From an uncultured Candidatus Cenarchaeum sp. (lineage in GTDB: Archaea > Thermoproteota > Nitrososphaeria > Nitrososphaerales > Nitrosopumilaceae): a stretch of 64,000 nt of DNA. This document shows positions 16,845-36,221 of this stretch, piece after piece. Every line of letters starts with the position of its first letter. Positions within the stretch are counted from its first letter, which is position 1. Below the pieces are notes generated by a model. The model made no database searches and had not been told where the DNA came from. It saw only the letters and a program-made list of their open reading frames with translations. The translations under genes were made by a program, and so were the position numbers. The stretch lies in the NCBI GenBank assembly GCA_958295735.1, contig OY282369.1, positions 480,161 to 544,160 on the forward strand, in the 5' to 3' direction.

Positions 16845-19800
16845 CTAGCCGTCCGCCAGCGCCTGCGGGGCCGCCGCCGAGTCGCCGATGGCGCGGCCCA
16901 CGGGTCCGGTTATCGCGGTCTGGTTTATGGCGATGGTGCCGGTGGCGTTGTCCGGCGCGGCGGGGCCGGCGAACGCGAGGGCGTGGGCGGCTCCGCCGTT
17001 GCCCGAGAGCGGGTTGCTCGCGTAGGCGCGGGCGATGCCGTCCACGACGAGCGCGCCGTAGGCCAGGCCCGCGGCTGTCGCGGGCTTGTCGTACCGTATG
17101 ATTACCCGGTCGGGGCCGGTCACGGCGGCCGAGAGTATCGCGGGCGGCTCGTTGCCCGCCAGCGCCTGCGGGGCCCTCGCCAAGCTGCCGAGGGCGTTTC
17201 CCGCGGAGTCGGTCACGCCCGGCTGGCCCACGTACAGGGTGTCGGGGTCGGCGCTCTGCATCAGCGGATGTTTGAACGCGAGGACGTGGACGTCCCCGCC
17301 GTTGCCCGACAGGGGATTCCTCGGGTACGTGTACCTGATCGGCTCGCCGACAACCATGCGGATGAGCCTGTCGCCTGGCTGGGTGCAACGTACCTCGTCG
17401 GGGCGGTTAATCACGATCAGGGAATAGCATGTCGGCGTGCCGTACGCGTCGGCCGTGACGGTCACGGGCTCGCTGTAGCGTATGGTCAGCTGCTGGGGGC
17501 CGGTGACCATGGCGAAGGTTATCCTCGGCGCCTGGCCGTCCGCCAGGGCCCGCGGGCGTGCGGCCGAGGCGCCGAGCGCGTTGCCCGCGGAGTCGGTTAC
17601 CGCGGCCCGGTCTATGGTTATGGTGCCGGTGGCGCCGGTGGGCACTGATGCGCCGCCGCCGGCGAACTCGAGTGCGTGGGAGGCGGTGCCGTTTCCCGAG
17701 AGCGGATCGGCCGCGTATGCGCGGGCGATGCCGTCCACGACGAGCGCGCCGTAGGCCGAGGCCGTGGAGTTCACGGGCTCGCTGTAGCGTATCGCTATGC
17801 TGCCGGGGCCGGTCACGGCGGCCGAGAGCAGCCTGAGCGCCTGGCCGTCCGCCAGCGCCTGCCGGTACGCGGCCGAGGCGCCGAGGGCGTTGCCCGAGAG
17901 GTCGGCCACCGCGGTCTGGTCTATGGTCACGGCGCCGACGGCATCGGTGGGCGCGGCGGGACCGGCGAACGCGAGGGCGTGGGAGGCGGTGCCGCTGCCG
18001 GAGAGCGGGTTGCTCGCGAAGGCGCGGGATCTGCCGTCCACGGCTAGCAGGCTGTAGGCCGAGGCCGCGGCGGTCACGGGCTCGCTGTAGGTTATGGTCA
18101 CCCGGTTGGGGCCGGTCACGGCGGCCGAGAGCAGCCTGAGCGCCTGGCCGTCCGCCAGCGCCTGCGGGTATGATGCCGAGGAGCCGAGGGCGGTGCCCGC
18201 GAGGTCGGCCACCGCGGTCTGGTCTATGGTCACGGCGCCGGCGGCATCGGTGGGCGCGGGCGCGCCGTCGGCGAACGCGAGGGCGTGGGAGGCGGTGCCG
18301 TTTCCCGAGAGCGGATCCGCCGCGTAGGCGCGGGCGATGCCGTCCACGACGAGCGCGCCGTAGGCCGAGGCCGCGGCGGTCACGGGCTCGCTGTAGTTTA
18401 TCGTTATGCGGTTGGGGCCGGTGACCGCGGCCGATGTTATCCTTGGTGCCTGGCCGGGCAGCAGCGCCTGCTGGTATGCCGCCGAGGCGCCGAGGGCGTT
18501 GCCCGAGAAGTCGGCCACCGCGGTCTGGTCCATGGTCACGGCGCCGGTCGCATTGGCGGGAGCGGCGGCGCCGGTAAACGCGAGGGCGTGGGAGGCGGTG
18601 GTGCCGCCCGAGAGCTTGTCGGACGCGTAGGGGCGGATCTCGCCGCCTATGGTGAGCGCACCGTAGGCCGAGGCCGCGGCGGTCACGGGCTCGCTGTATG
18701 TTATCGTTATGCGGTTGGGGCCGGTCACGGCGGCGAATTCCACGCCCGGCGCCTGGCCGTCCGCCAGCGCCCGCTGGTATGATGCCGAGGAGCCGAGGGC
18801 GTTGCCCGAGAGGTCGGCCACCTTGGGCTGGCTTATGGTCACGGCGCCGGCGGCGCCGGTCGGCGCGGGCGCGCCGCCGGCGAACTCGAAGGCGTGGGAG
18901 GAGGAGGCGCCCGGCGGGAGATCGCGCTGGTGGGCGCGGGGTATGCCGTCCACGGCGAGCGGGCCGTAAGCCGAGTTCTTGGCGGTCACGGGCTCGCTGT
19001 AGCGTATGGTCACTTGGCGGGGGCCGGTGACCTCGGCCGAGGTTATCTCGGGCGCCTGGCCGTCGGCCAGCGCCTGCGAGTGCGATGCCGAGGCGCCGAG
19101 GGCGTTGCCGTCGGAGTCGGTCACCGCGGCCTGGTTTATGGCGACGGCGCCGGTCGCATTGGCGGGCGCGGCGGCGCCGGTAAACGCGAGGGCGTGTGAG
19201 GCGGTGCCGCTGCCCGAGAGCTTGCCGGACGCGTAGGAGCGGGCCTCGCCGCCTATGGTAAGCGTGCCGTAGGCCGAGGCCGTGGAGTTCACGGGCTCGC
19301 TGTAGGTTATGGTCACCCGGTTGGGGCCGGTGACCTCGGCAGAAGTTATGCCGGGCTTCAGGTTGTTGTCCAGCGCGCGCTGGGTCGTCGTCGAAGTGCC
19401 GAGGGCGGTGCCTGCCGCGTCTGTTACCTCGGGCTCCTGCAGGAGGAGGGTGCCGGTGGAGGTGTCCCCGGCCGTGCATCTGGCGAACGCGACGGTGTGG
19501 ACGGCGCCGCCGTTGCCCGAGAGCGGGCTGGCCGGGTAGGTGCAGAACCCGAAGTCTATGCGGAGCCTGGTGCCGGGCTGGCGGCATGACGACGAACCTG
19601 GCTGGACACCGGCGGGGCAGTCCGGCAGGCCGTACGCGTTGAGCGTGACGGTCACGGGCTCGCTGTAGCGTATGGTCACCTGCTTGGGGCCGGTGAGCGC
19701 GATCGAGGTCACCGTGGGCGCCTGGCCGTCCGCCAGCGCCCGCGGGTGTGCCGCCGAGTCGCCGAAGGCGTTGCCCGCGGCGTCGGTCACCGCGGTCTGG

Positions 19801-21488
19801 TTTATGGACACGGCGCCGGTCGCGTAGGCGGGCGCGGCGGGGCCGGCGAACGCGAGGGCGTGGACGGCGGTGCCGTTGCCGGAGAGCGGGCTGGGCGCGT
19901 ACGCGCGGGTGGCGTCGTCCACGGCGAGCGCGCCGTAGGCCGAGGCCGTGGAGTTCACGGGCTCGCTGTAGCGTATGGTTATTTGGTTGGGGCCGGTCAC
20001 GGCGGCCGAGGTTATCTCGGGCGCCTGCCCGTCGGCCACCGCCTCGGCGTGCACCTCCGAGGCGCCGAGGGCGATGCCCGCGGGGCCGATCACCGCGGTC
20101 TGGTTTATGGTCATGACGCCGGTTGCGTGGGTGGGCAGGCCGGCGCCGCCGGACAGCGCGAGCACGTGGACGGCGCCGCCGTTTCCCGAGAGCGGATCGA
20201 CCAAGTGGGGGTCGGCCGCGCCGCTCGCGGCGAACGCGCCGTACGCCGCGCCCGCGGCGGTCACGGGCTTGTCGTACCGCACGGTTATGCGGTCGGGGCC
20301 GGTGACCGCGGCCGACAGGACGGCGGGGGGCTCCAGGGCGATGTCGACGGCCACCACATTGGATGCCTCGTTCGCGTTTCCCGCCGCATCCATCACGCGG
20401 CCGGCCGGCACGCTCACCTCGAGCCTCTGCCCGTCCGCAAGATCCGCCACGTCGAACGCGTACGCGGCATCGAAGGCCAGGATGCGGCCGCTGCCCGTGT
20501 CGGCCGCGTATATCCTGCCGGAAAATCCGTCGACCGCCACGCCGTACGGGCGCTCGAACTGGCCGGGCAGGTCGGCGAGGCGGCTCCCGTCGGCATCGAA
20601 GGCCAGGATGCGGTCGTTGGACGCGTCTGCCGCGTATACGGCGCCCGAGCCGTCGACCGCCACGCCGTACGGGTAGGCGGACGGGGCGCGCATGTCGCCG
20701 GCGTGGCGCAGGGCGGAGTCGAATACCCGGATGCTGCCGCTGCCCGCATCGGCCACGTATATGGATCCCGAGCCGTCGACCGCCACGCCGTACGGATCGT
20801 CGAGTCCCGTGATGTTGGCCACGTTGCTCCCGTTGGAGTTGAGTACCAGGACGACGTCGGCGGCCGCGTCGGCCGCGTATATCCTGCCGGAAGATCCGTC
20901 GACCGCCACATCCGACAGGCGGCCGAACGGGCCCGGGATCACGCCCGTGCGGTTCCCGGCGGGGTCGAAGACCAGGATGAGCCCCTCGGCGGAGTCGGCA
21001 ACGTACACGCTTCCCGAGCCGCCCACCGCCACGCCCACCGGGTGGCCGAAGGGGCCTAGGAAGTCGGCCACGCGGTTCCCGGTGGTGGAGTTGAAGGCCC
21101 TGACGCTGGCGCCGATCGAGTCGACCACGTACAGGGTGCCCGAGGAGCCGTCGACCGCCACGCGGGACGGGCGGTCGAATTGGCCGCCGAAGGCGGCGTC
21201 GTACAGCGGCGCCGCGCGCAGGTTCTGCACCGTGCCCGAGGAGGCGTTGACGACGGATGCGCCGAGGGTCGAGGCGTTTATCGCCTTGTTGAACTTCATG
21301 CCGAACGGCACCGTCTGCAGGTCGGCGGGGGAGGCGACACCGGTCGAGATCTCGACGTCGAGCGAGTGGCCGTCCGCGTGCGCCTGCGGCGCGGCGGCGC
21401 AGCCGGCAAGGAGGGCCGCTGACGGGATCAGGGCCGCGGCGAGCAGCAGCCGGCTCCGCGATGCGGGATGCCCCTGGGTCCTCGTCAA
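16845..21488 (-). CDS. Giant secreted lipoprotein: NHL propeller plus SwmB-type repeats
   Basis: About 1,547 residues if started at the TTG at 21488. This gives a 29-residue lipoprotein signal (basic MTRTQGHPASRSR, then LLLAAALIPSAALLAGC with Cys 30 as lipid anchor); in-frame ATGs at 21701 and 21653 would bury the signal. Residues about 100-350 are six NHL-type repeats (VAVDGSSGTLYVVDS pattern), a beta-propeller. From about 375 to the end run eleven repeats of roughly 100 residues, each with VTGPNRITITYSEPVTA, PLSGNGTASHALAF and DLAGNALGASA, like SwmB/Ig-like adhesin repeats. Repeats 3 and 10 carry Cys-containing insertions. There is no C-terminal membrane anchor. It is likely a surface protein for adhesion or recognition; the ligand is unknown. 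Confidence 0.85.
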   Translation of the reverse strand: MTRTQGHPASRSRLLLAAALIPSAALLAGCAAAPQAHADGHSLDVEISTGVASPADLQTVPFGMKFNKAINASTLGASVVNASSGTVQNLRAAPLYDAAFGGQFDRPSRVAVDGSSGTLYVVDSIGASVRAFNSTTGNRVADFLGPFGHPVGVAVGGSGSVYVADSAEGLILVFDPAGNRTGVIPGPFGRLSDVAVDGSSGRIYAADAAADVVLVLNSNGSNVANITGLDDPYGVAVDGSGSIYVADAGSGSIRVFDSALRHAGDMRAPSAYPYGVAVDGSGAVYAADASNDRILAFDADGSRLADLPGQFERPYGVAVDGFSGRIYAADTGSGRILAFDAAYAFDVADLADGQRLEVSVPAGRVMDAAGNANEASNVVAVDIALEPPAVLSAAVTGPDRITVRYDKPVTAAGAAYGAFAASGAADPHLVDPLSGNGGAVHVLALSGGAGLPTHATGVMTINQTAVIGPAGIALGASEVHAEAVADGQAPEITSAAVTGPNQITIRYSEPVNSTASAYGALAVDDATRAYAPSPLSGNGTAVHALAFAGPAAPAYATGAVSINQTAVTDAAGNAFGDSAAHPRALADGQAPTVTSIALTGPKQVTIRYSEPVTVTLNAYGLPDCPAGVQPGSSSCRQPGTRLRIDFGFCTYPASPLSGNGGAVHTVAFARCTAGDTSTGTLLLQEPEVTDAAGTALGTSTTTQRALDNNLKPGITSAEVTGPNRVTITYSEPVNSTASAYGTLTIGGEARSYASGKLSGSGTASHALAFTGAAAPANATGAVAINQAAVTDSDGNALGASASHSQALADGQAPEITSAEVTGPRQVTIRYSEPVTAKNSAYGPLAVDGIPRAHQRDLPPGASSSHAFEFAGGAPAPTGAAGAVTISQPKVADLSGNALGSSASYQRALADGQAPGVEFAAVTGPNRITITYSEPVTAAASAYGALTIGGEIRPYASDKLSGGTTASHALAFTGAAAPANATGAVTMDQTAVADFSGNALGASAAYQQALLPGQAPRITSAAVTGPNRITINYSEPVTAAASAYGALVVDGIARAYAADPLSGNGTASHALAFADGAPAPTDAAGAVTIDQTAVADLAGTALGSSASYPQALADGQALRLLSAAVTGPNRVTITYSEPVTAAASAYSLLAVDGRSRAFASNPLSGSGTASHALAFAGPAAPTDAVGAVTIDQTAVADLSGNALGASAAYRQALADGQALRLLSAAVTGPGSIAIRYSEPVNSTASAYGALVVDGIARAYAADPLSGNGTASHALEFAGGGASVPTGATGTITIDRAAVTDSAGNALGASAARPRALADGQAPRITFAMVTGPQQLTIRYSEPVTVTADAYGTPTCYSLIVINRPDEVRCTQPGDRLIRMVVGEPIRYTYPRNPLSGNGGDVHVLAFKHPLMQSADPDTLYVGQPGVTDSAGNALGSLARAPQALAGNEPPAILSAAVTGPDRVIIRYDKPATAAGLAYGALVVDGIARAYASNPLSGNGGAAHALAFAGPAAPDNATGTIAINQTAITGPVGRAIGDSAAAPQALADG

Positions 21489-21716
21489 CGGCGCGGATCC
21501 TCCCCTCCGTCCGCAGCCGCCCCGCCCCGACGCGGGAGCGCCTCCGCCCGGGGTCGGCCACTGCCGCCGCCCCCCGCGCGGCTGCCGCCCGCGCCCCCGC
21601 CGAGGGGCGCCCGGCCCTGCATTCCACGCCGCCCCGCGCGCCCGGGCCGCCATTCCAGCAGCATGCGCGGCCGTCGTCGCGCCGGTAGATAAACTATCCA
21701 TGGAGCGGGCGGTATG

Positions 21717-22325: not shown

Positions 22326-24122
22326 CTAGGCCGACCGCTCCAGCTCGCCCACCTGCCCCGATATGTAGTCGAAGCCGTCCTGCCAGAACCGGCCGGACGA
22401 CACGTCCATGCCGTGCTCGGCGAGCAGCGCCTCGGGGTTCCTCGAGCCGCCCGCGGCGAGTATCTCCTCGTACGAGCGCGCAAAGTCCCGCCCCTCCCTC
22501 TTGTACCTCTGGAACAGCGAGAGCGCCAGCAGGTTGCCGAACGAGTACGCGTAGCAGTAGAACGGGGCGTGAAAAAAGTGGGGTATGCAGGCCCACTCGT
22601 CGGCAAAGTCCTCCGAGACGTCGACCGAGCCGCCGAACTGCTCCCTCAGGCCCGACAGGTATGCCCGCGACAGGTCGCCCGGCGCCGCCGAGTCCGTTAT
22701 CATGCGGTGGGCCTCGACCTCGAACGCCGTGAAGTGCGACTGGCGCATGACCGTGGCGTACAGGTCGTCGATCTCCTCGGCCAGCATGGCCCTCCTCTCG
22801 CGGGCATCCGCCTTTTCCGACAGCGCGTCGTGCAGCAGGAGTTCGGAGAACGTGGACGCCGTCTCGGCCAGGGGAAGCGGGGCCTGGTGGACCAGCGCCG
22901 AGCGCCCCGCGGCGGCCATGCTGTGCACCGCGTGCCCGAGCTCGTGCGCCAGGGTGAACACGTCCCGCGAGCACCCGGTAAAGCTCAGCAGGACGTACGG
23001 CACGACGTCGGGGGACGGGGAGCTGCAGAAGGCCCCGTCCCGCTTGCCCGGCCGCACCCGCCAGTCCACGTGCCCGCCGTCCACCACCCTCCTGGCGTGG
23101 GCGGCCAGCGCCGGGCTGAACCCCCCCAGCGATTCCAGGACGAGCCGCGCGGCGGCGGCGTACCCGTACCGCTTCCGCGGGCGGCGGCCGGGCGGCGGGG
23201 CCGGCGCGTACAGGTCGTACCTGCGCAGCCTGCCCGCCCCGATCATGCCCGCCTTTGCCTTGAAAAAGCGGCGGAACACGCCCGCGTTGCCCCTGCACGA
23301 TTCCAGCAGGGCGGAGACGGCCCCGTCGCTCACGTCGTTGTCCGCGTTGCGGACGGACAGGGGGGTGCGGTGCTTCCTGATCTCCACGCCCTCGTCCGAC
23401 CAGTTGCGCGCTATGTTCTGGTATATCTCCCCCAGGACGCCCCTGCTCCCCGAATGCGCGGAGAGCAGCGACCTGTACGCCGCCCGCCGCGTGGAAGCGG
23501 ACGGGCTCCGGATCAGCGCGGCCACCTCCTCCCGGGTCAGGCGCGCCCCGCGCCCCCGGCGCGGGCCCCCGGCGGCGCCCACCTTATACCGGAACGCGCC
23601 GGTGATCTTGTCGTACAGCCTGGCCATCGCGGAGGCGCCGGTGGCGTCCAGCGTGTTGATTATCTTCTCCTCCGGCTCGGCCAGCGAGTGCCTCGCCAGG
23701 CGGCGCTCGTGCGCCAGGTGGTCCCGCAGCTCGCCCGACCCGGCCATCAGCCTCTCCGCGTTATCCCCGTCGATGCCGTTCTGCCACCACAGGTCAAAGT
23801 ACACGCTGCGGTTGGACACGTCGGCCCCGACCTTGGCCATCCTGCCCAGGAGGGCGGTGGCGGGGCCGGACTGCGTGTCCGCCGAGTGCAGCAGCGACGC
23901 GTAGCCGTGCAGCACGCCGGCATCCCTCGCCAGCCGGTCCAGCATGCGGAGCAGGCGGGCGAACGAGGCGGCATCCATCCCCGGATCCAGCGAGCCCCTC
24001 TCGCGGGCGAACGAGGCGGCCCGCCGGCGCAGGGCCGCGAGGCGCTTCTCCAAGCCGGGGGCGCCCACCAGCTCGTCGAGGTCCCAGCCGCCCGCCCCCA
24101 CGCCGCCCGCGGCCCGCCCCAT
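22326..24122 (-). CDS. pepF: Oligoendopeptidase F-like M3 family zinc peptidase
   Basis: Cytosolic zinc metallopeptidase that cuts oligopeptides. 598 residues, typical for the M3B/PepF group. The zinc motif is TLAHELGHAVHS (HEXXH), with the third ligand Glu in PLAETASTFSELLLHDAL about 25 residues later; the C-terminal FFHAPFYCYAYSFGNLLALSL helix pair and YEEILAAGGSRNPEALL are conserved features. The N-terminus is a helical domain without a signal peptide. A CCGTTTTTTTAGC stretch at about 24144-24151 on the minus strand places a promoter 24-28 bases before the ATG. It is likely involved in peptide turnover, perhaps of peptides imported by the cell; that link is inference. Confidence 0.95.
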   Translation of the reverse strand: MGRAAGGVGAGGWDLDELVGAPGLEKRLAALRRRAASFARERGSLDPGMDAASFARLLRMLDRLARDAGVLHGYASLLHSADTQSGPATALLGRMAKVGADVSNRSVYFDLWWQNGIDGDNAERLMAGSGELRDHLAHERRLARHSLAEPEEKIINTLDATGASAMARLYDKITGAFRYKVGAAGGPRRGRGARLTREEVAALIRSPSASTRRAAYRSLLSAHSGSRGVLGEIYQNIARNWSDEGVEIRKHRTPLSVRNADNDVSDGAVSALLESCRGNAGVFRRFFKAKAGMIGAGRLRRYDLYAPAPPPGRRPRKRYGYAAAARLVLESLGGFSPALAAHARRVVDGGHVDWRVRPGKRDGAFCSSPSPDVVPYVLLSFTGCSRDVFTLAHELGHAVHSMAAAGRSALVHQAPLPLAETASTFSELLLHDALSEKADARERRAMLAEEIDDLYATVMRQSHFTAFEVEAHRMITDSAAPGDLSRAYLSGLREQFGGSVDVSEDFADEWACIPHFFHAPFYCYAYSFGNLLALSLFQRYKREGRDFARSYEEILAAGGSRNPEALLAEHGMDVSSGRFWQDGFDYISGQVGELERSA

Positions 24123-24601: not shown

Positions 24602-27600
24602 CTAGTCGCACGAGAAAGAGTACGCGACGGTCTGGTTCATGCTGCCCGTGAGCGCCGGCGCCCCTTCCAAGTTGACGCGGAACGAGATCTCCGCGGATCC
24701 CGCGGAGGCGATGTCCGATAGGACGGGCATGAGCACGCCCGGCGCCGCGAGATCCGTCCAAGCGCGGTTGCCCGCCGTGCTGATCTCCGTTATTGACGAC
24801 GGGAGCATCGCCGAGTTGGCGAACATCCACGAGGTGGAGTTCAGCGTGACCGAGCTGACCGCGAGGGTGCCCATGTTGGTTACGGTCTGGTTGAGCGCGC
24901 CGGACGTGGCGCCCTGGGCCAGTTCGTCGAAGCTCAGCCCGCCCGTGGCCAAGCGTATCCCGCACGAGTCGGGACCCGTGACCGTGCCCGACTTTACCCA
25001 GCCGTCCGGACCGAACACGAACTTGCCCAGCCTGTTCGGGGTGTGCAGGTCGCCCGCGGCGTCCAGCGTTATGCCGGGGCCCAGGGCCCCGTCCAAGTTC
25101 GTCGCCGCGGCGTGCACTTGGTCCTTCACGTCCGCCGAGGTGATGAGCGAGGCGTTGGGGGCGGGGGCGGCGGCGCGCGCCATGCCGATCGAGTCGCCGA
25201 TGAGGAACAGCGAGTCGTACGCGGAGTAGGAGAAGACCGTCGTGTAGACCTCCCCGTTGGTGTAGTAGTTCACCAGATCGTCGATCCTCTTGTTCTGGGG
25301 CACGTCGAGCTCGAAGGTCGTGAGGTTGGCCGTCCTTGCGAACGCCTCCGCGTTCGCGCCCAAAAGCTCGGCGCGCGGGGCGTACAGTATGCCGCTGGGG
25401 ACGAACCAAGGCACGCCGCCGGCCGAGCTCAGCCGGACGTACGGCTTGGCGGCCTCGGCCATGGACTCAAAGTCGCCTTCAAAGCCGGCGAACAGAATCG
25501 CCACCGTGCCGCGCGGCTCGGTGGCGAGCGTCCTGTCCAGCCTCGCGTTCAGGTCGGCGGCGAACGAGTCCCAGTCGTACGCGCCTGGCTGGAACGTGTA
25601 CCCGGCCAGCGTGTCCAACCCCAGCATCGGCAGGAGCTCCGACACCGAGGAGTTGAACGTCGTGCCGTACGTGTCGTTGCGGACCACCGGGATCACCTTC
25701 TTGATGCCCGCCTCGTCAAGCGCCTGCGCCATTATCGGCGCCTCCTTTGCCGTGCCGAACGTCAGCCGGAACACCGAGTCGACGGACCTGAGGTCCGCCG
25801 CCGAGGACGTCGAGTACGGGCTGACCAAGACGACCCCCGTCTCGTCGGAGTACCGCTTCGCCGCGGACAGGGCGGAGCTCGTCGTGGGCCCGACGTACGC
25901 CAGCGGGCCGTCGGCGCTGCCGCTGGAGTTGTGCAGTGACTGCAAGCCGGCTGCCGAGCTGTCGCCCCTCACCAAGTTGAGGTAGTACCGGCCGGTGTCG
26001 TTGGCGGCCAGATCCGCGAACCGCCCCTCCTGCCTCTTGTTGAAGTCGTTCACGGCCACGCGGACCGCCTCCCACTGCTCGCGGTCGTACCTGGGCTCCG
26101 TAGAGAACAGGCCCCCGACGTCGATGCACTCAACCGTGTTGGCCTGGTCCGCGCAGTAAACGTTGGTCACGGAGGCGACGGACTGCCTTACCCACTTTTG
26201 CTCCGCGTCCGACACGCCGAACACGGCGTAGTTCTGCGGGAGCCGTATGTCGCCGGCCTCGTTGAGGACTATGTCGCCGAGGGCGCCCGTGTAGTTGCGC
26301 GCCGCGTCCGTCACGGCCGCCCTCACCGCCAGCGGATCGTAGCTTCCGTCCTCCGCTATGACAGCCTTGACCGCGGCGCCGAGCACGCCCACGGCGTCGT
26401 ACGCCGAGTTCGAGTACTGGGTGCCGATCGAGATCAGGCGCCTGTTGATGTCGTTGGGGGCCACGTCGTACAGGACGCCCGTGAGGTTGACCGAGCGGGC
26501 GAACTCCAGCGCCGCCGGCGTGCCTATGGCTTCGGCGCTGTTGGCCGTGCCGTCGGGGACGTACCACGCGACGTCGTCCATGGCGGAATTGGCGGCCGCG
26601 TGGGAGGCGATGCTCGCGAACTCGTTGCCGAACCCGATGAAGACCACGGCGATGCTGCTGTTGTCGTGCTGCGCCGTGGCGGCATCGATCGCGGTGCTGA
26701 GGTCGGACGCGATGTCGGCCCAGTTCGCTCCCGACTCCGCGTACCGTATCCTGTCGGCCACCGCCGCGCCGTTGACCTCGAACGTGGCGGATACGGCGGT
26801 GTCGAGGCCCCGGCCCCACACGTCGTCGCGTATCACCGATATGATGCGCGTGATGCCGTCCTCCTTTATCAGCTCGGCCAGCAGCACGCCCTGCTTCGTG
26901 TCGTCGGGGACGAGCCTGTACAGGCTGTCGTCGGGTATCGCCAAGGCGGGAGCGGTCGACGAGTGGCTTATCAGCAGGAGGCCTTCCGCGTTGGCGTAGG
27001 CCAGCACGCGGCCCGTGTTGCCGCTCGTGGACGGGCCGATGAACAGCGTGTAGGCGTCCGTCTCGTGCGCCTCCGTTATGCCGGCAAGGGCATCGGGGGC
27101 GCTGGACCTGGCATCGGGGCTGATGCGGATGTTCTTCGTGTGCATGTCGAGGTAAAAGTCGCCGATCAGCTCGTGCACCGTGTTGAAGTCGTCGACGGCG
27201 AGCCGCATGGCGAGCAGTTCCTTGTCGTCGGTGTAGACGAGGTTGTCGTCAAGCAGCAAGAGGGCTCCAAAGTCGACGACGGGCGTCCCCATGTAGGTGT
27301 CCGTCTTGGCCCACTCGTAGCCTCCGCCGGCCGCGTCCCGCACCTCCCACTTTGCGTAGCTGTTCGGCGTGCGCAGGTCGCCCGCCGCGTTGAGCACGAT
27401 GTCGCCTAGGGCGCCCGAGTACTCGCGCGCGGCGTGCCTGAACGTCTGCCTGACGTCCTCCGGCACGTGATCCCTGCCCTCCGCGGCCGCCGCCTCTTTT
27501 GCCTCCTGGATGGCGCGGCCCAGCACGAATATCGCGTCGTACGACGAGAACTCGTATATGGTCGGGTCGTCCACGCCGGCCGCCTCGAGCTTGCCCATGA

Positions 27601-30600
27601 CCTCCGCGAACTTTGTGTTGTTTTCCACGTCGAATATGGTCGCGGTCAGGTTCACCGCCTCGGCGAACTCGCCCGATTCCAGTATCGACGGCTTCGCGGC
27701 TATGCCGTCGGTGCCGAACCACGGGACGGTCTTGATCTCCGCATAGTTGTCGGCCACTGCGGCCAAGTTGTTGAAGTCGCCCTGGAACCCGATGAACAGC
27801 ACCGCCACGGGGTCGGTGGCGGAGGCCGCGTGCAGGCGGGTGATGATCCCGTCAAGATCCTCGGCGATGGCCGTCCAGTTGGCTCCCGTCTCCGGTATGG
27901 TGACGTGCTCCACCTCCACCAAGTGCACCGCCAGCCGCTCGCTAGTTGAGGCGTTGAGGCCGGTGCCCCACGTGTCGTCCCTGGTCACCGTCACTACCCT
28001 CTCGATGCCCGTCTCGTTGAGCAGGCTGGCCAGCAGCGCTCCCTGCTGGTTGTGGACTATGTCCGCCAGCACGACGCCCTGCTGGTGGTCGTTGGGCACG
28101 AGCCGGAACAGGCTGTCGTCCCTCACGGCCAAGGACGGGGCCGTCGAGGACGGGCTCACCAGCACCAGATCCAAGTCGTTGTCCTGGGAGTAGTCCAAGG
28201 CCCTCTTGCTGTTGCCGCTGGTCGACGGGCCCACAAAGTACGACGGGCCGCCCTCGCCGCCGAATGCGGCGGCCAGCACGGAGGTCACGTTCGGGAGAGA
28301 GGCGGTCGCGGCCGCGGGGGAGATGCTGATGTTGCTCGGCTTTAGGTTCAGGTAGACGTCGCCCAGCCCCTCCTGCTCTATGTTGAAGTCGTCCACGGCC
28401 ACCTCGAACGCTATTCCCCTCCTGTCGTCGTTGAAGCCCTCGCCCCTCACCAAAAGCGCCCCCACGTCGACTACCGGCGTCTCGTACCTGATCTTCGTGT
28501 CGACCCAGTCGCCGCTCGTCGCGTTGAGCTGCCATACGGCGTACTTGTCGGGGGTCCTGAGATCGCCCTTTGAGTTCAGTATGATGTCGCCGAGCGCTCC
28601 CGTGTACCCCTCGGCCGCGCCCGGAATCGCCGCCCTCAGTTCGGCCGGCCCGTACCCGGGATCGGCCGCGCGCGCCGCCTCGGCCGCCAGCGCCAGCACG
28701 TGTACCGCGTCGTACGTGGAATAGTCGTACGCCGTGGGCGCCAGTCCCGCGGCCTCTATAGCGGCATCTATGCGGGCGGTCTTTTCGTTGGGGGCGATGT
28801 CCAGCGACAGGGACGTCAGGTTTACCGCCTTTGAAAAGTCCAGGACCGCGCCCGCCTGCAGCGGCTGGGGCGGGTACACGACGGCGTCCGGCAGGTACCA
28901 GTGGACGGACCGGAGGGCGGTGCTGGCGTTGGTCGCCCCCGCCGCCACCGCTTCAAACTCGCTGTCGAACCCGAGGAACGCCACCGCCACGTCGGCATCC
29001 GACCTGGCGTTCTGCGCTGCCGTTATCTCCGACTGGACGAGGTCGTTCATCCGCGGCACCAAGGTGTCCCAGTCCGCATCGGTGTCTGGGTACGACATGC
29101 CGGGAGCCATGGTGATGCCGTCGAGGGCCACCACCGCCGCGGTGAGCGTGTCGTTCAGGCTCGTGCCGTACGCGTCGTCCACGAATATGGGAACCAGCAC
29201 TTCCACCGACGCATCGGAGGCCAAGTTTGCTATGACTCTCGCCTCCTCCTCGGAGCTCACCGCGATGCGGAACGCGTTGTCGCCGGCGATCGCCAGCGAG
29301 GGCGCCGTCGAAGTCGGGCTCAGGAATGTCAGATCGGCATCGTGCGCTATCGCCTCCGTCAGATCGGCGCTGGTGGACGGGCCGATGTAGTACTGGAGAT
29401 TTTCGCCGTCCTCCTCAAGCTCCGTGATTACCTGGTCCGAGGTGTGGTGGGCGGTCATGTTGCCCAGCACCATGTCCAGCCGCAGCTTGCCGGCCCACAG
29501 CGCCGCCTCGTTGTAGTCGGATACCGCCGCCTTTGCCGACTCGTGCCTGTTCAGGTCGTTGAACTTGTCGGTCGCGTTGAGATCGAACAGGGCCCCAAAC
29601 CTCAGGGTGGCCGGCGTGTGATCGTACGCCCGCGTGGAGCCGTTGGCGCTGAGCACCAGCACGTCGCCGCCCGAGCCGACGGCCACGTCCTGCGGCTGGA
29701 AGTCCTCCGGAAGAGTCACCTCTGCCAGCAGCGTGCCGTCGGAGCCCCTGATCACCGCGAGCGCGGGCGGGGGGACGCCGCCGTCTGCGGCGTCCGTGCC
29801 CTCGGCGACGGCGTAAACCAGTCCTAGGCCGGGATCAGATGCGGAGGAGACGGAGACGTTTCCCGGTATCGTGACGTCGCTCATGTGGGCAGGCGCCGCG
29901 GGATCCGATACGTTGTACACGGAGATCTTTTTCTCCCCGAGCACGAAGAGTTTGCCGGACGCCGCCTCGACGCCCATTACCATCCCCTCGGCCGGCACGT
30001 CCGCATTGCCCGCGTTCGCGTGGGTGTATTCGCCGGTAGCAGGGTCCGCTACGGTGATCACCTGCACGGTGTTGTGCGCCGCGTCCGCCGCCGGCTTGTG
30101 CGTCGCGATCCCGTAGGCGTGGCCCGACGGGCCCGCGGCTATGTCGGTAAAGTTGTAGGCAAAGTCGTAATCAAATGCGGCAGTTCCGGCGGCGAGCTTG
30201 TCGGTGCCGTTGATTACCGCCACGTTGCTCTCGGTAGCCACGTAGACTAGGCCGTTGGCCTGGTCTATTGCAAGCGCTCGCGGGTCTGCCGCATCCACCA
30301 TGTCGCCTGCACTGTCCCAGACTTGCACGGCTACGGTGCTGCTGATCGCGTTGCTGCTGTCGATCACGCCCACGCGGGACGTCGTCGCGTTGCTCGTGGC
30401 GTCGGTCTCAGTGTACAGGACGTACGCCTTGTCGGCGCCGTGGTTTACGGCGATGTCCACAATCGCCACGGTGAAACTGGCGTTGCCCACATTGACGTTT
30501 TCTGCGCTACTACCGTCGGAATCCAGCACCCGCACCGTCCCGGAACCGGAGTCGCCAACGTAGATCGTGCCGGTATCGGCGTTGGCCGCTATTATCTGGC

Positions 30601-30745
30601 CGGCGCCGCCCGCCTCGAACGTCTCCACCGTATAGCACCCGTCGCAGGCGGCGTGGGCCGGCTGGAGGCCGAGCGCCGCCGCTGATGCTGCTACTGCGAC
30701 TGCCAGCAGTACGATCGTGGTTGCTGGCCTCCATGCGCCTGTCAT
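24602..30745 (-). CDS. Giant secreted protein with N-terminal propeller and four tandem periplasmic-binding domains
   Basis: 2,047 residues. Signal peptide 1-32 (TTIVLLAVAVAASAAALGL core, AHA|A site). Residues about 40-350 are strand-rich, NHL-propeller-like (GTIYVGDSGSGTVRVLDSDG). Four homologous modules start near 382, 755, 1155 and 1541, each with a G-A-L entry strand and a helix ending AVxDFN. Each contains (Y/F)(I/V)GPSTS or a close variant, followed by a LVSPSSTAPSLA-type loop, then TGALGDIxLNxxGDLRTP. This is the branched-chain amino-acid / ANF-receptor binding fold (Peripla_BP_6 type). The C-terminal 110 residues, starting at a Cys and ending FSCD, recur at the end of the 58.2 kb protein. 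There is no membrane anchor and no transporter genes beside it. The ATG at 30745 is supported by a TTTATTAAC box at about 30771-30779. Confidence 0.88.
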   Translation of the reverse strand: MTGAWRPATTIVLLAVAVAASAAALGLQPAHAACDGCYTVETFEAGGAGQIIAANADTGTIYVGDSGSGTVRVLDSDGSSAENVNVGNASFTVAIVDIAVNHGADKAYVLYTETDATSNATTSRVGVIDSSNAISSTVAVQVWDSAGDMVDAADPRALAIDQANGLVYVATESNVAVINGTDKLAAGTAAFDYDFAYNFTDIAAGPSGHAYGIATHKPAADAAHNTVQVITVADPATGEYTHANAGNADVPAEGMVMGVEAASGKLFVLGEKKISVYNVSDPAAPAHMSDVTIPGNVSVSSASDPGLGLVYAVAEGTDAADGGVPPPALAVIRGSDGTLLAEVTLPEDFQPQDVAVGSGGDVLVLSANGSTRAYDHTPATLRFGALFDLNATDKFNDLNRHESAKAAVSDYNEAALWAGKLRLDMVLGNMTAHHTSDQVITELEEDGENLQYYIGPSTSADLTEAIAHDADLTFLSPTSTAPSLAIAGDNAFRIAVSSEEEARVIANLASDASVEVLVPIFVDDAYGTSLNDTLTAAVVALDGITMAPGMSYPDTDADWDTLVPRMNDLVQSEITAAQNARSDADVAVAFLGFDSEFEAVAAGATNASTALRSVHWYLPDAVVYPPQPLQAGAVLDFSKAVNLTSLSLDIAPNEKTARIDAAIEAAGLAPTAYDYSTYDAVHVLALAAEAARAADPGYGPAELRAAIPGAAEGYTGALGDIILNSKGDLRTPDKYAVWQLNATSGDWVDTKIRYETPVVDVGALLVRGEGFNDDRRGIAFEVAVDDFNIEQEGLGDVYLNLKPSNISISPAAATASLPNVTSVLAAAFGGEGGPSYFVGPSTSGNSKRALDYSQDNDLDLVLVSPSSTAPSLAVRDDSLFRLVPNDHQQGVVLADIVHNQQGALLASLLNETGIERVVTVTRDDTWGTGLNASTSERLAVHLVEVEHVTIPETGANWTAIAEDLDGIITRLHAASATDPVAVLFIGFQGDFNNLAAVADNYAEIKTVPWFGTDGIAAKPSILESGEFAEAVNLTATIFDVENNTKFAEVMGKLEAAGVDDPTIYEFSSYDAIFVLGRAIQEAKEAAAAEGRDHVPEDVRQTFRHAAREYSGALGDIVLNAAGDLRTPNSYAKWEVRDAAGGGYEWAKTDTYMGTPVVDFGALLLLDDNLVYTDDKELLAMRLAVDDFNTVHELIGDFYLDMHTKNIRISPDARSSAPDALAGITEAHETDAYTLFIGPSTSGNTGRVLAYANAEGLLLISHSSTAPALAIPDDSLYRLVPDDTKQGVLLAELIKEDGITRIISVIRDDVWGRGLDTAVSATFEVNGAAVADRIRYAESGANWADIASDLSTAIDAATAQHDNSSIAVVFIGFGNEFASIASHAAANSAMDDVAWYVPDGTANSAEAIGTPAALEFARSVNLTGVLYDVAPNDINRRLISIGTQYSNSAYDAVGVLGAAVKAVIAEDGSYDPLAVRAAVTDAARNYTGALGDIVLNEAGDIRLPQNYAVFGVSDAEQKWVRQSVASVTNVYCADQANTVECIDVGGLFSTEPRYDREQWEAVRVAVNDFNKRQEGRFADLAANDTGRYYLNLVRGDSSAAGLQSLHNSSGSADGPLAYVGPTTSSALSAAKRYSDETGVVLVSPYSTSSAADLRSVDSVFRLTFGTAKEAPIMAQALDEAGIKKVIPVVRNDTYGTTFNSSVSELLPMLGLDTLAGYTFQPGAYDWDSFAADLNARLDRTLATEPRGTVAILFAGFEGDFESMAEAAKPYVRLSSAGGVPWFVPSGILYAPRAELLGANAEAFARTANLTTFELDVPQNKRIDDLVNYYTNGEVYTTVFSYSAYDSLFLIGDSIGMARAAAPAPNASLITSADVKDQVHAAATNLDGALGPGITLDAAGDLHTPNRLGKFVFGPDGWVKSGTVTGPDSCGIRLATGGLSFDELAQGATSGALNQTVTNMGTLAVSSVTLNSTSWMFANSAMLPSSITEISTAGNRAWTDLAAPGVLMPVLSDIASAGSAEISFRVNLEGAPALTGSMNQTVAYSFSCD

Positions 30746-30779
30746 GAGTTGGCGAACCGCCGAATACAGAGTTAATAAA

Positions 30780-34622: not shown

Positions 34623-36221
34623 CTAATTAACCCTTGGCGCGGCGGCCCCCGCGCGGCGGCCGCGGCGGGCCGCCCTGATCCTGGAGGTCGCCAGCCACGC
34701 GGCGCAGGCGGGGGCGGCCACGTACATGCCGAGTATGGCGGACAGGGCCAGCATTCCCAGCAGCAACGCGGCGCCCTCGCCGCCCTCCTGCCAGTCGGCC
34801 AGCGGCGACATGGCCGCGTGCGCCACCAGAACCATCGGGGCGACCAGGGCGCGGACGGCCCCGCGGAGCTCCGGGCTCTGGCGCTCGGCGTCAGCCACGG
34901 CGGGCGAGAACGAATAGTACACGCTGCTGAACGCTGACATGAACGCCGAGCCCGCGCCCGTCCGGAGCAGCGGGCCGTCGCGGATCTCGCGCAGCTGCTG
35001 CACCTGGGGCGCCAGCTCCGTCCCGTACGCGGCGGTGGCGATCAGGCACCCTCCCCCGCTCTCCGTGGCCACGCAGGTGCCGTCCCTGAGCTCCGTGCCG
35101 GGGCCGCATTCGGGGTCGCCGGCGGGAGGCTCGGGCTCCGGGACCGGCGCGGGGGGCTCGGGCGTCGGCTCGGGCTCCGGGGCGGGCGCCTGCGGCTCGG
35201 GCTCCGGGGGCTCCGGGACGGGAGCGGGAGCGGAAGGCTCCGGGACGGGAGCAGGAGCGGAAGGCTCCGGGACGGGAGCGGAAGGCTCCGGGACGGGAGC
35301 GGGAGCGGAAGGCTCCGGGACGGGAGCGGGAGCGGAAGGCTCCGGGACGGGAGCGGGAGCGGAAGGCTCCGGGACGGGAGCGGGAGCGGAAGGCTCCGGC
35401 GGGGGCGCCTGCTCGGGCTCGGCCGGCGGGGGCGCCTGCTCGGGCTCGGCCGGCGGGGGCGCCTGCTCGGGCTCGGCCGGCGGGGGCGCCTGCTCAGCAG
35501 GCTGGGTCGCCCGCTCAACCTGCAACCCGGCCTCCCTCTCGACGGCCGCCCTGCGGGCGGCCGCCTCCGGATCCTCGGGCTCCGGCGCTGCAGGCGTCGG
35601 CTCCGTTGGTTCGTCGCTCACGCGGCCCACGGGCTGGATCGGCTGCTCCGGGGCCTGCGCCGGCGGCGGGTTCTCGCCCGCCTGGCTCGGCTGGGGCGGC
35701 AGCTGATCGCACATCTGCCGCTGGCTAATGGGATCCGACGTGACCGTGACGGTGAACGCCTTGCGCAGTTGAACGGTCTGCGAGGCGCCGGGCACCTCGG
35801 GCGCCGCCGTGGCCGTGCCCTCGTACTCGCCCGGCGCCGCGTCCGCCGGGACGGCCATGTGAATCCTGCTGAACACCTTGCTCTGGCTGGCCGTAATGGT
35901 CACGCTCGCCGGCACGGGGGTGACGAACTGCGCCGCCTCCCCGGCCACCAAGAACCGCACCACTATGCCCGCGTCGGGGATCGCGTCGGGCTCGGTCTCC
36001 TCCACCACGAAGGTGCCGAAGGCGCAGCCGCCCGCCGAGATCGTCTTGTCCAGCGAGTAGAACGGCCCGACCTGGGTCAGGAACGAGGCATCGGCCTGGC
36101 GCGGGGGCGCGAGGAACGCCTGGTCCCCGCCGTTGTCCGCCGCGGGCTGCAGCAGCAGCGCGACGGCCGCCACCGCCAGGGCAGGGGCCGCCCTTGCGGC
36201 TAGGCGGGCTCCGCGATGCAT
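34623..36221 (-). CDS. CFI-box membrane protein with long Pro/Glu stalk
   Basis: 532 residues. N-terminal signal (ALAVAAVALLLQ), then a domain of about 130 residues with VVRFLVAGEAAQFVTPVP and Ig-like strands, then a Pro/Glu/Ala stalk of about 170 residues built from EPEQAPPPA and EPSAPAPVP units, a small Cys-containing turn (DPECGPGTELRDGTCVA), and the C-terminal CFI-box module: GGGCLIATAAYGTELAPQVQQ, REIRDGPLL, FSSVYYSFSP. It ends with hydrophobic segments (LVAPMVLVAHAAM, ALLLGMLALSAILGMYVAA) and a basic tail, a membrane-anchored arrangement. CFI-box modules are known only as sorting-like domains of unknown role. The ATG at 36221 follows a CATATATAC box by about 26 bases. Its stop is 22 bases before the aroA start, so the aroA promoter lies between the two genes. 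Confidence 0.85.
   Translation of the reverse strand: MHRGARLAARAAPALAVAAVALLLQPAADNGGDQAFLAPPRQADASFLTQVGPFYSLDKTISAGGCAFGTFVVEETEPDAIPDAGIVVRFLVAGEAAQFVTPVPASVTITASQSKVFSRIHMAVPADAAPGEYEGTATAAPEVPGASQTVQLRKAFTVTVTSDPISQRQMCDQLPPQPSQAGENPPPAQAPEQPIQPVGRVSDEPTEPTPAAPEPEDPEAAARRAAVEREAGLQVERATQPAEQAPPPAEPEQAPPPAEPEQAPPPAEPEQAPPPEPSAPAPVPEPSAPAPVPEPSAPAPVPEPSAPAPVPEPSAPVPEPSAPAPVPEPSAPAPVPEPPEPEPQAPAPEPEPTPEPPAPVPEPEPPAGDPECGPGTELRDGTCVATESGGGCLIATAAYGTELAPQVQQLREIRDGPLLRTGAGSAFMSAFSSVYYSFSPAVADAERQSPELRGAVRALVAPMVLVAHAAMSPLADWQEGGEGAALLLGMLALSAILGMYVAAPACAAWLATSRIRAARRGRRAGAAAPRVN
35140..35495 (-). repeat. Pro/Glu-rich coding tandem repeats
   Basis: Two in-frame arrays: about seven units of roughly 27 bases encoding EPSAPAPVP, then four units of 30 bases encoding a PPPAEPEQA-type stalk. 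The units are nearly identical at the DNA level, pointing to recent slippage or recombination. Confidence 0.9.

Follow-up and report, generated by a model that had tools for sequence, protein, structure and literature searches.

The sequence analysed here (the window) is a stretch of 64,000 nucleotides, C1:480161-544160, from the 3.17 Mb single-contig genome of an ammonia-oxidising archaeon that belongs to the genus of the sponge symbiont Cenarchaeum. Positions 24602-30745 of the reverse strand are occupied by an ORF of 2,047 aa (contig positions 504765-510923), which was confirmed as a real gene by translation, Pfam and codon-position GC. The GC values of the three codon positions in this frame are 0.6/0.5/0.9 from ∼30838 downward, near the start codon; upstream of ∼30838 they are flat (0.82/0.82/0.83), and the extended frame shows no coding pattern there. 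An archaeal TATA-like box, TTTATTAA, read by eye at 30772-30779 of the same strand, ends 26 nt before the ATG, and the promoter is probably of a short-leader or leaderless type.

The encoded chain (all coordinates on the reverse strand) begins with the signal peptide MTGAWRPATTIVLLAVAVAASAAALGLQPAHA (30650-30745), identified by sequence and hydropathy, and a probable beta-propeller of the NHL/YVTN type with seven blades as counted by eye (29606-30646). These are followed by four modules of the periplasmic-binding-protein (PBP) type, designated M1 (28469-29605), M2 (27275-28468), M3 (26174-27274) and M4 (25016-26125), the last of which is preceded by a linker with the Cys pair CADQANTVEC (26126-26173). 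The chain is closed by a C-terminal domain of ∼135 aa, hereafter CTD (24605-25015). The single secreted chain of ∼2,050 residues with a propeller-like region and four binding domains, proposed in the initial annotation, is thus borne out by the ORF, Pfam and the structural models, but the list of domains was incomplete, the CTD having been overlooked. The presence of a signal peptide without a membrane anchor was likewise corroborated by hydropathy, in which the signal peptide is the only strong hydrophobic segment. With no further transmembrane segment and no lipobox, the protein carries neither a membrane nor a lipid anchor, and its assignment as a lipoprotein was rejected. Its six cysteines are arranged in three pairs, either closely spaced or bracketing (CDGC, CADQANTVEC and both termini of the CTD), as would be expected of an extracellular protein, and the pI was calculated as 4.3.

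Located 480 bp downstream on the same strand is a gene for an M3 family oligopeptidase without a signal peptide (22326-24122). Farther along the window, positions 16845-21701 encode a secreted protein of 1,618 aa which combines an NHL propeller with about ten tandem SWM/Big_12-like repeats (TGPNRITIRYSEPV) and has no CTD.

Fold and ligand pockets of the four modules

Pfam detected four ANF_receptor/Peripla_BP_6 stretches over the cut-off (E-values of 1.4e-66 and 7e-34 for the whole protein), which makes the target a member of the type I PBPs of the LivK/ANF family (PF13458/PF01094). Structure prediction, suggested in the initial annotation as a check, gave periplasmic-binding folds for both modules modelled. 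M4 together with the CTD was modelled by AlphaFold2 at pLDDT 90.1 and pTM 0.86, and M1 mostly at high confidence; in Foldseek the M1 and M4 models match LivK/LivJ-type binding proteins with a probability of 1.00, as well as the ligand domains of class C GPCRs (mGluR, GABA-B). Hence, M1 and M4 have the two-lobed PBP fold according to the models, and the same fold is predicted by homology for M2 and M3, which were recognised by Pfam and pocket alignment. The propeller ahead of M1 is less well defined: the Pfam NHL match (3.3e-07) passes the cut-off on one blade, the AlphaFold2 model displays an all-strand pattern at a pLDDT of ∼70, and a phmmer search for relatives of the propeller among the collected ORFs found none. 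The four modules are pairwise 26-43% identical (32-43% among M1-M3), and their single origin by in-gene duplication was neither supported nor rejected by the AU test (p = 0.33).

Ligand pockets were read at the positions equivalent to residues 79, 102, 150, 202, 226 and 276 of E. coli LIVBP, using as a reference the LIVBP sequence and what we take to be its contact residues (S79, T102, Y150, Y202, E226 and F276). The pocket reads S,T,Y,F,D,Y in M1, S,T,W,F,D,Y in both M2 and M3, and S,T,Y,F,S,F in M4, where the acidic residue is gone. Proteins of the clade linked to LivHM have S,T/S,W,F,D/G,Y/F, and D,A,R/H/Y,S,G,P is read in the 30 PBP domains which end very long ORFs of this genome, the pocket set being lost altogether. 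Judged from these alignments, the alpha-amino-acid pocket is conserved or conservatively replaced in M1-M3, and M4 lacks the acid. Since M1-M3 match the LivHM-linked proteins at sites where the 30 paralogous domains have lost them, the sites have been kept in the target. The divergence of all four pockets, as initially claimed, therefore applies mainly to M4, whereas a single pocket set is common to M1-M3. The predicted ligands of M1-M3 are L-amino acids or closely related alpha-amino compounds, and M4 presumably binds something related with weaker alpha-amino recognition.

A second measure was based on 47 columns that are invariant among 20 LivHM-adjacent proteins. These are kept at 46 positions in the anchored paralogue L022 described below, 33 in M2, 34/46 in M3, 26/45 in M1 and 24/47 in M4, compared with 24 in one of the very long ORFs and 23/45 in E. 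coli LIVBP. As M1 and M4 retain only about half of the invariants, roughly as many as E. coli LIVBP, the ability of these two modules to dock to LivHM seems doubtful.

The C-terminal domain and the paralogous family

The CTD is a beta-sandwich in the AlphaFold2 model. Its alignments are characterized by a bracketing pair of invariant cysteines, an invariant W and the motif N-x-G, all of which are present in the target, and in the copies read the chain ends at the second invariant Cys or 1-2 residues later. No match was obtained when 18 CTD members were searched against Pfam or when the CTD was compared with PDB sequences, and the domain was not found in phage records. The first CTD profile detected it in four of 250 genomes of the family Nitrosopumilaceae; a broader profile added further family members and almost nothing beyond the family. 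The CTD is previously undescribed, and together with its distribution it represents the newest part of the finding.

In other genomes the CTD follows beta-helix proteins (G197), NHL propellers (G206) and, as assigned by sequence motifs, subtilisin-like proteases and other propellers (G244, G241, G067). It also occurs as a stand-alone protein of ∼165 aa, composed of a signal peptide and the CTD, which is encoded between or beside the genes for CTD-bearing proteins in G244, G241 and G067 and near one in G202. A recurring cluster comprises a subtilisin-like protease-CTD, a secreted protein of ∼260-278 aa (G244, G241), the stand-alone CTD protein and a propeller-CTD (L245 7848-12864; L248 815-3851; L247 666-3886; L246 11553-12053). 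The range of cargo and the stand-alone copies, that is, the distribution of the domain taken by itself, suggest a role in assembly or anchoring. Tentatively, the CTD may define a cell-surface assembly system of Nitrosopumilaceae, in which the stand-alone secreted subunit would form or dock to a surface polymer and proteases, propellers, beta-helices and LivK arrays would plug in via their CTDs; in this genome the system would then have been expanded to ∼40 PBP-CTD proteins, among which the target, a four-module array, would still bind amino acids.

The target is not isolated, since its genome contains another 53 PBP domains and another 42 CTD copies, 41 of which follow a PBP. Two more four-module arrays are present. 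L021 consists of four PBPs and a CTD, its later modules are degenerate, and a Cys-pair linker similar to CADQANTVEC precedes each of its modules. L022 (L022 3541-8610, C1:2018040-2023109) has an N-terminal membrane anchor, four modules joined by EEGMM repeat linkers and no CTD; its modules are 98-99.8% identical in DNA, so that their descent from one module by duplication is clear, unlike in the target. The repeat may have arisen by amplification within the gene in the recent past, or during assembly. In the tree L022 falls with the transporter-type proteins, and the target, L021 and the very long ORFs make up a clade of their own, which was found in no other genome.

These lineage-specific giant ORFs (∼1,100 to >6,000 aa) occupy about 40 loci of the contig, e.g. 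L023, L024 and L028-L058, and end in a PBP and a CTD, the pocket being mostly degenerate. In the giants scanned, the region upstream of the PBP contains NHL, Ig-like (Big_12) or HYR domains. The 3' ends of the giants share a median of 83%, and up to 99%, of their DNA sequence (22 copies). A paralogue identified by Pfam and alignments in the window itself (58216-63873, reverse strand) is a HYR-containing ORF which ends in one PBP with a degenerate pocket and a CTD. Truncated or broken PBP-CTD copies (L095 1687-2169, L096 1165-1599, L097, L098, L059, L060) point to a turnover of genes within the family. A second C-terminal domain of secreted proteins, the CFI-box-CTERM type, is absent from the target (NF041770); such ends were recorded at 34623-36221 of the window and at L026 2500-4653 (both NF041770) as well as in L054, and in L026 and L054 they stand behind a LivK-type PBP.

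Transporters and the proposed function

The initial report that no transporter lies nearby is correct for the locus, where no LIV-type permease was found near the target and LIV genes are not encoded alongside, but it does not extend to the genome, which has a LivHMGF operon ∼165 kb away. Its permease genes (C1:676317-678206) are the only PF02653 pair in the genome; the two ATPase genes of this single locus (L085) are divergent to the permease pair and a transposase-like ORF adjoins. No PBP is encoded in the 19.5-kb locus or within ∼8 kb of the operon, whereas in another genome of the genus (G001) a PBP adjoins the permeases. Hence, the binding function for this importer must come from elsewhere. 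When the two match lists were compared over the 250 Nitrosopumilaceae genomes, PBPs were found in 41, LivHM in 39 and both in 35, against 6.4 expected by chance. The livFGHMK genes are present in sponge-associated ammonia-oxidising archaea (AOA), and a gene encoding three livK domains adjoins an expressed livK (PMC6790972). An ordinary solute-binding protein (SBP) of a transporter was nevertheless rejected as a full description of the target, which has no anchor and no local LIV genes.

The best-supported function of the target is surface amino-acid capture: at a probability of about 0.5, it would be a secreted multi-site amino-acid-binding protein which is retained at the surface and captures amino acids for uptake by LivHMGF. 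The four LivK-type Venus-flytrap domains would be displayed between the N-terminal propeller and the CTD, the latter most likely holding the chain on the cell surface, and the array would concentrate amino acids from the surroundings, presumably a sponge if the organism is a symbiont like its genus-mate. The amino acids could then be handed over to the only LivHMGF importer of the genome. For direct docking to LivHM the anchored four-copy L022 protein (C1:2018238-2023070) is the better candidate, with the secreted array possibly serving as a reservoir around it. The earlier idea of a surface array capturing several ligands is consistent with the LivK-type folds and the amino-acid residues of three pockets; its plurality of ligands is weak, as M1-M3 have the same core set.

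The main rival is adhesion or host recognition, with the PBP modules acting as protein- or glycan-binding scaffolds, the propeller as an extra contact module and small-molecule binding being incidental. The same CTD follows pocket-less PBPs in ∼30 giant ORFs, so this very genome employs the PBP-CTD unit in a role that does not involve binding amino acids, M1 and M4 have drifted as far as the giant-ORF paralogues, and expansions of surface domains have been discussed as candidates for host contact in sponge Thaumarchaeota (PMC7848895). Adhesion alone, however, would not require the LIVBP-type residues which M1-M3 keep at the compared pocket positions, and the nearest relative outside the genome (L212) is simply a secreted protein of two PBPs whose pocket motifs are intact; this explanation is therefore considered rather unlikely. 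Less probable still is a soluble reservoir, decoy or sensor that would bind amino acids without feeding LivHMGF, buffering or sequestering them or reporting via the propeller to another partner: the PBP family tracks LivHM across genomes and no transducer is fused to the target or known nearby, even though there is no adjoining permease, M1 and M4 have lost transporter-clade invariants and the fold is common to the ligand-binding domains of receptors (mGluR, GABA-B).

Given the massive expansion of the family with the decayed copies listed above and the loss of the acidic residue in M4, the target might also be just one drifting copy, losing ligand binding like the giants and having no selected four-site function. 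The intact frame of 2,047 codons and the retention of the pocket in three modules with an overall identity of no more than 32-43% render this very improbable. The almost identical modules of L022 could in principle have been multiplied by the assembler, but the modules of the target are highly divergent (26-43% identity) and the codon structure is uniform along the ORF, which is hence not an assembly duplication; relatives with two or three modules are also present in independent assemblies. An assembly or annotation artefact, raised in the initial annotation as a possible objection, was accordingly rejected for the target and is given a negligible probability.

With regard to surface amino-acid capture, sponge-associated AOA are thought to be mixotrophic because they possess LIV transporters, which the analysed free-living ones lack (PMC7848895, PMC6790972). 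Given a secreted array that retains several intact sites, alongside a quadruplicated anchored SBP, the scavenging of amino acids by an ammonia oxidiser would become open to direct testing. The CTD, which has no Pfam family and is attached to protease, propeller, helix and PBP cargo, would provide a handle on how proteins of these archaea are attached to the surface, and points to a wider family of surface-protein assembly.

Relation to known binding proteins

The finding is genuine and stands out by its extent, with four sites, a propeller and a CTD in one chain and no transporter alongside; the full architecture was not found in any other genome searched. A scan of genome contigs with the whole target protein gave no match, and the PBP scan of contigs rests on a narrower alignment, the broad one being too diverse. 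One binding domain per chain, assumed to be the norm, indeed holds for the PBPs recovered outside Nitrosopumilaceae, which are single-module and mostly adjoin LivHM. Within the family, however, relatives carry one to three modules, a variation in number which the initial annotation had proposed to look for: two-module chains occur in PL23a_bin.18, D6, SB0662, 277c_17, G156 and G262, and a three-module chain, already published (PMC6790972), in IBTHAUMO2. Outside Nitrosopumilaceae no tandem array was found; several of the members that carry one are sponge symbionts, and some of the arrays lie beside LivHM (L087/L119, L218, L219).

LivK/LivJ, the branched-chain amino-acid SBPs of LIV ABC importers (PF13458/PF01094; 4n0q, 3td9, 1z15), have the same fold and pocket set as M1-M3. 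The target differs from them in having four modules in one secreted chain with a propeller and a CTD, in lacking an anchor and LIV genes beside it, and in the pocket aromatic W of M2 and M3. The best match outside the genome, L212 of G156 (39% identity over query residues 762-1398, E-value 3e-79), shares the signal peptide and intact pocket motifs but has two modules and neither propeller nor CTD. Three proteins of G013 (L089, L091, L092) resemble the target in that a secreted propeller is followed by a LivK-type PBP; yet they have one PBP, which lies outside the clade of the target, and no CTD, and in L089 an SdrD_B-like region follows. Another ORF of G013 (L088 5820-10001) combines a type II peptide-binding domain (SBP_bac_5) with two LivK-type PBPs. 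In GlnPQ, as in the target, a chain contains more than one substrate-binding domain with different sites, but its two domains are fused to a permease, which the target lacks (PMC8025302, PMC11331510).

A published parallel in layout is a protein of Ca. Nitrosospongia ianthellae, the symbiont of Ianthella basta (L146/L218), which has three livK domains with ligand sites reported to be kept (PMC6790972). Both are tandem LivK chains of sponge AOA or their relatives; the Nitrosospongia protein, however, has three modules, is adjoined by a single livK and livHM, and has no propeller or CTD, and its modules keep 37-44 of 44-47 transporter-clade invariants, compared with 24-34 in those of the target. 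Since tandem LivK proteins of sponge AOA are already known, the target is best regarded as an extreme variant of them.
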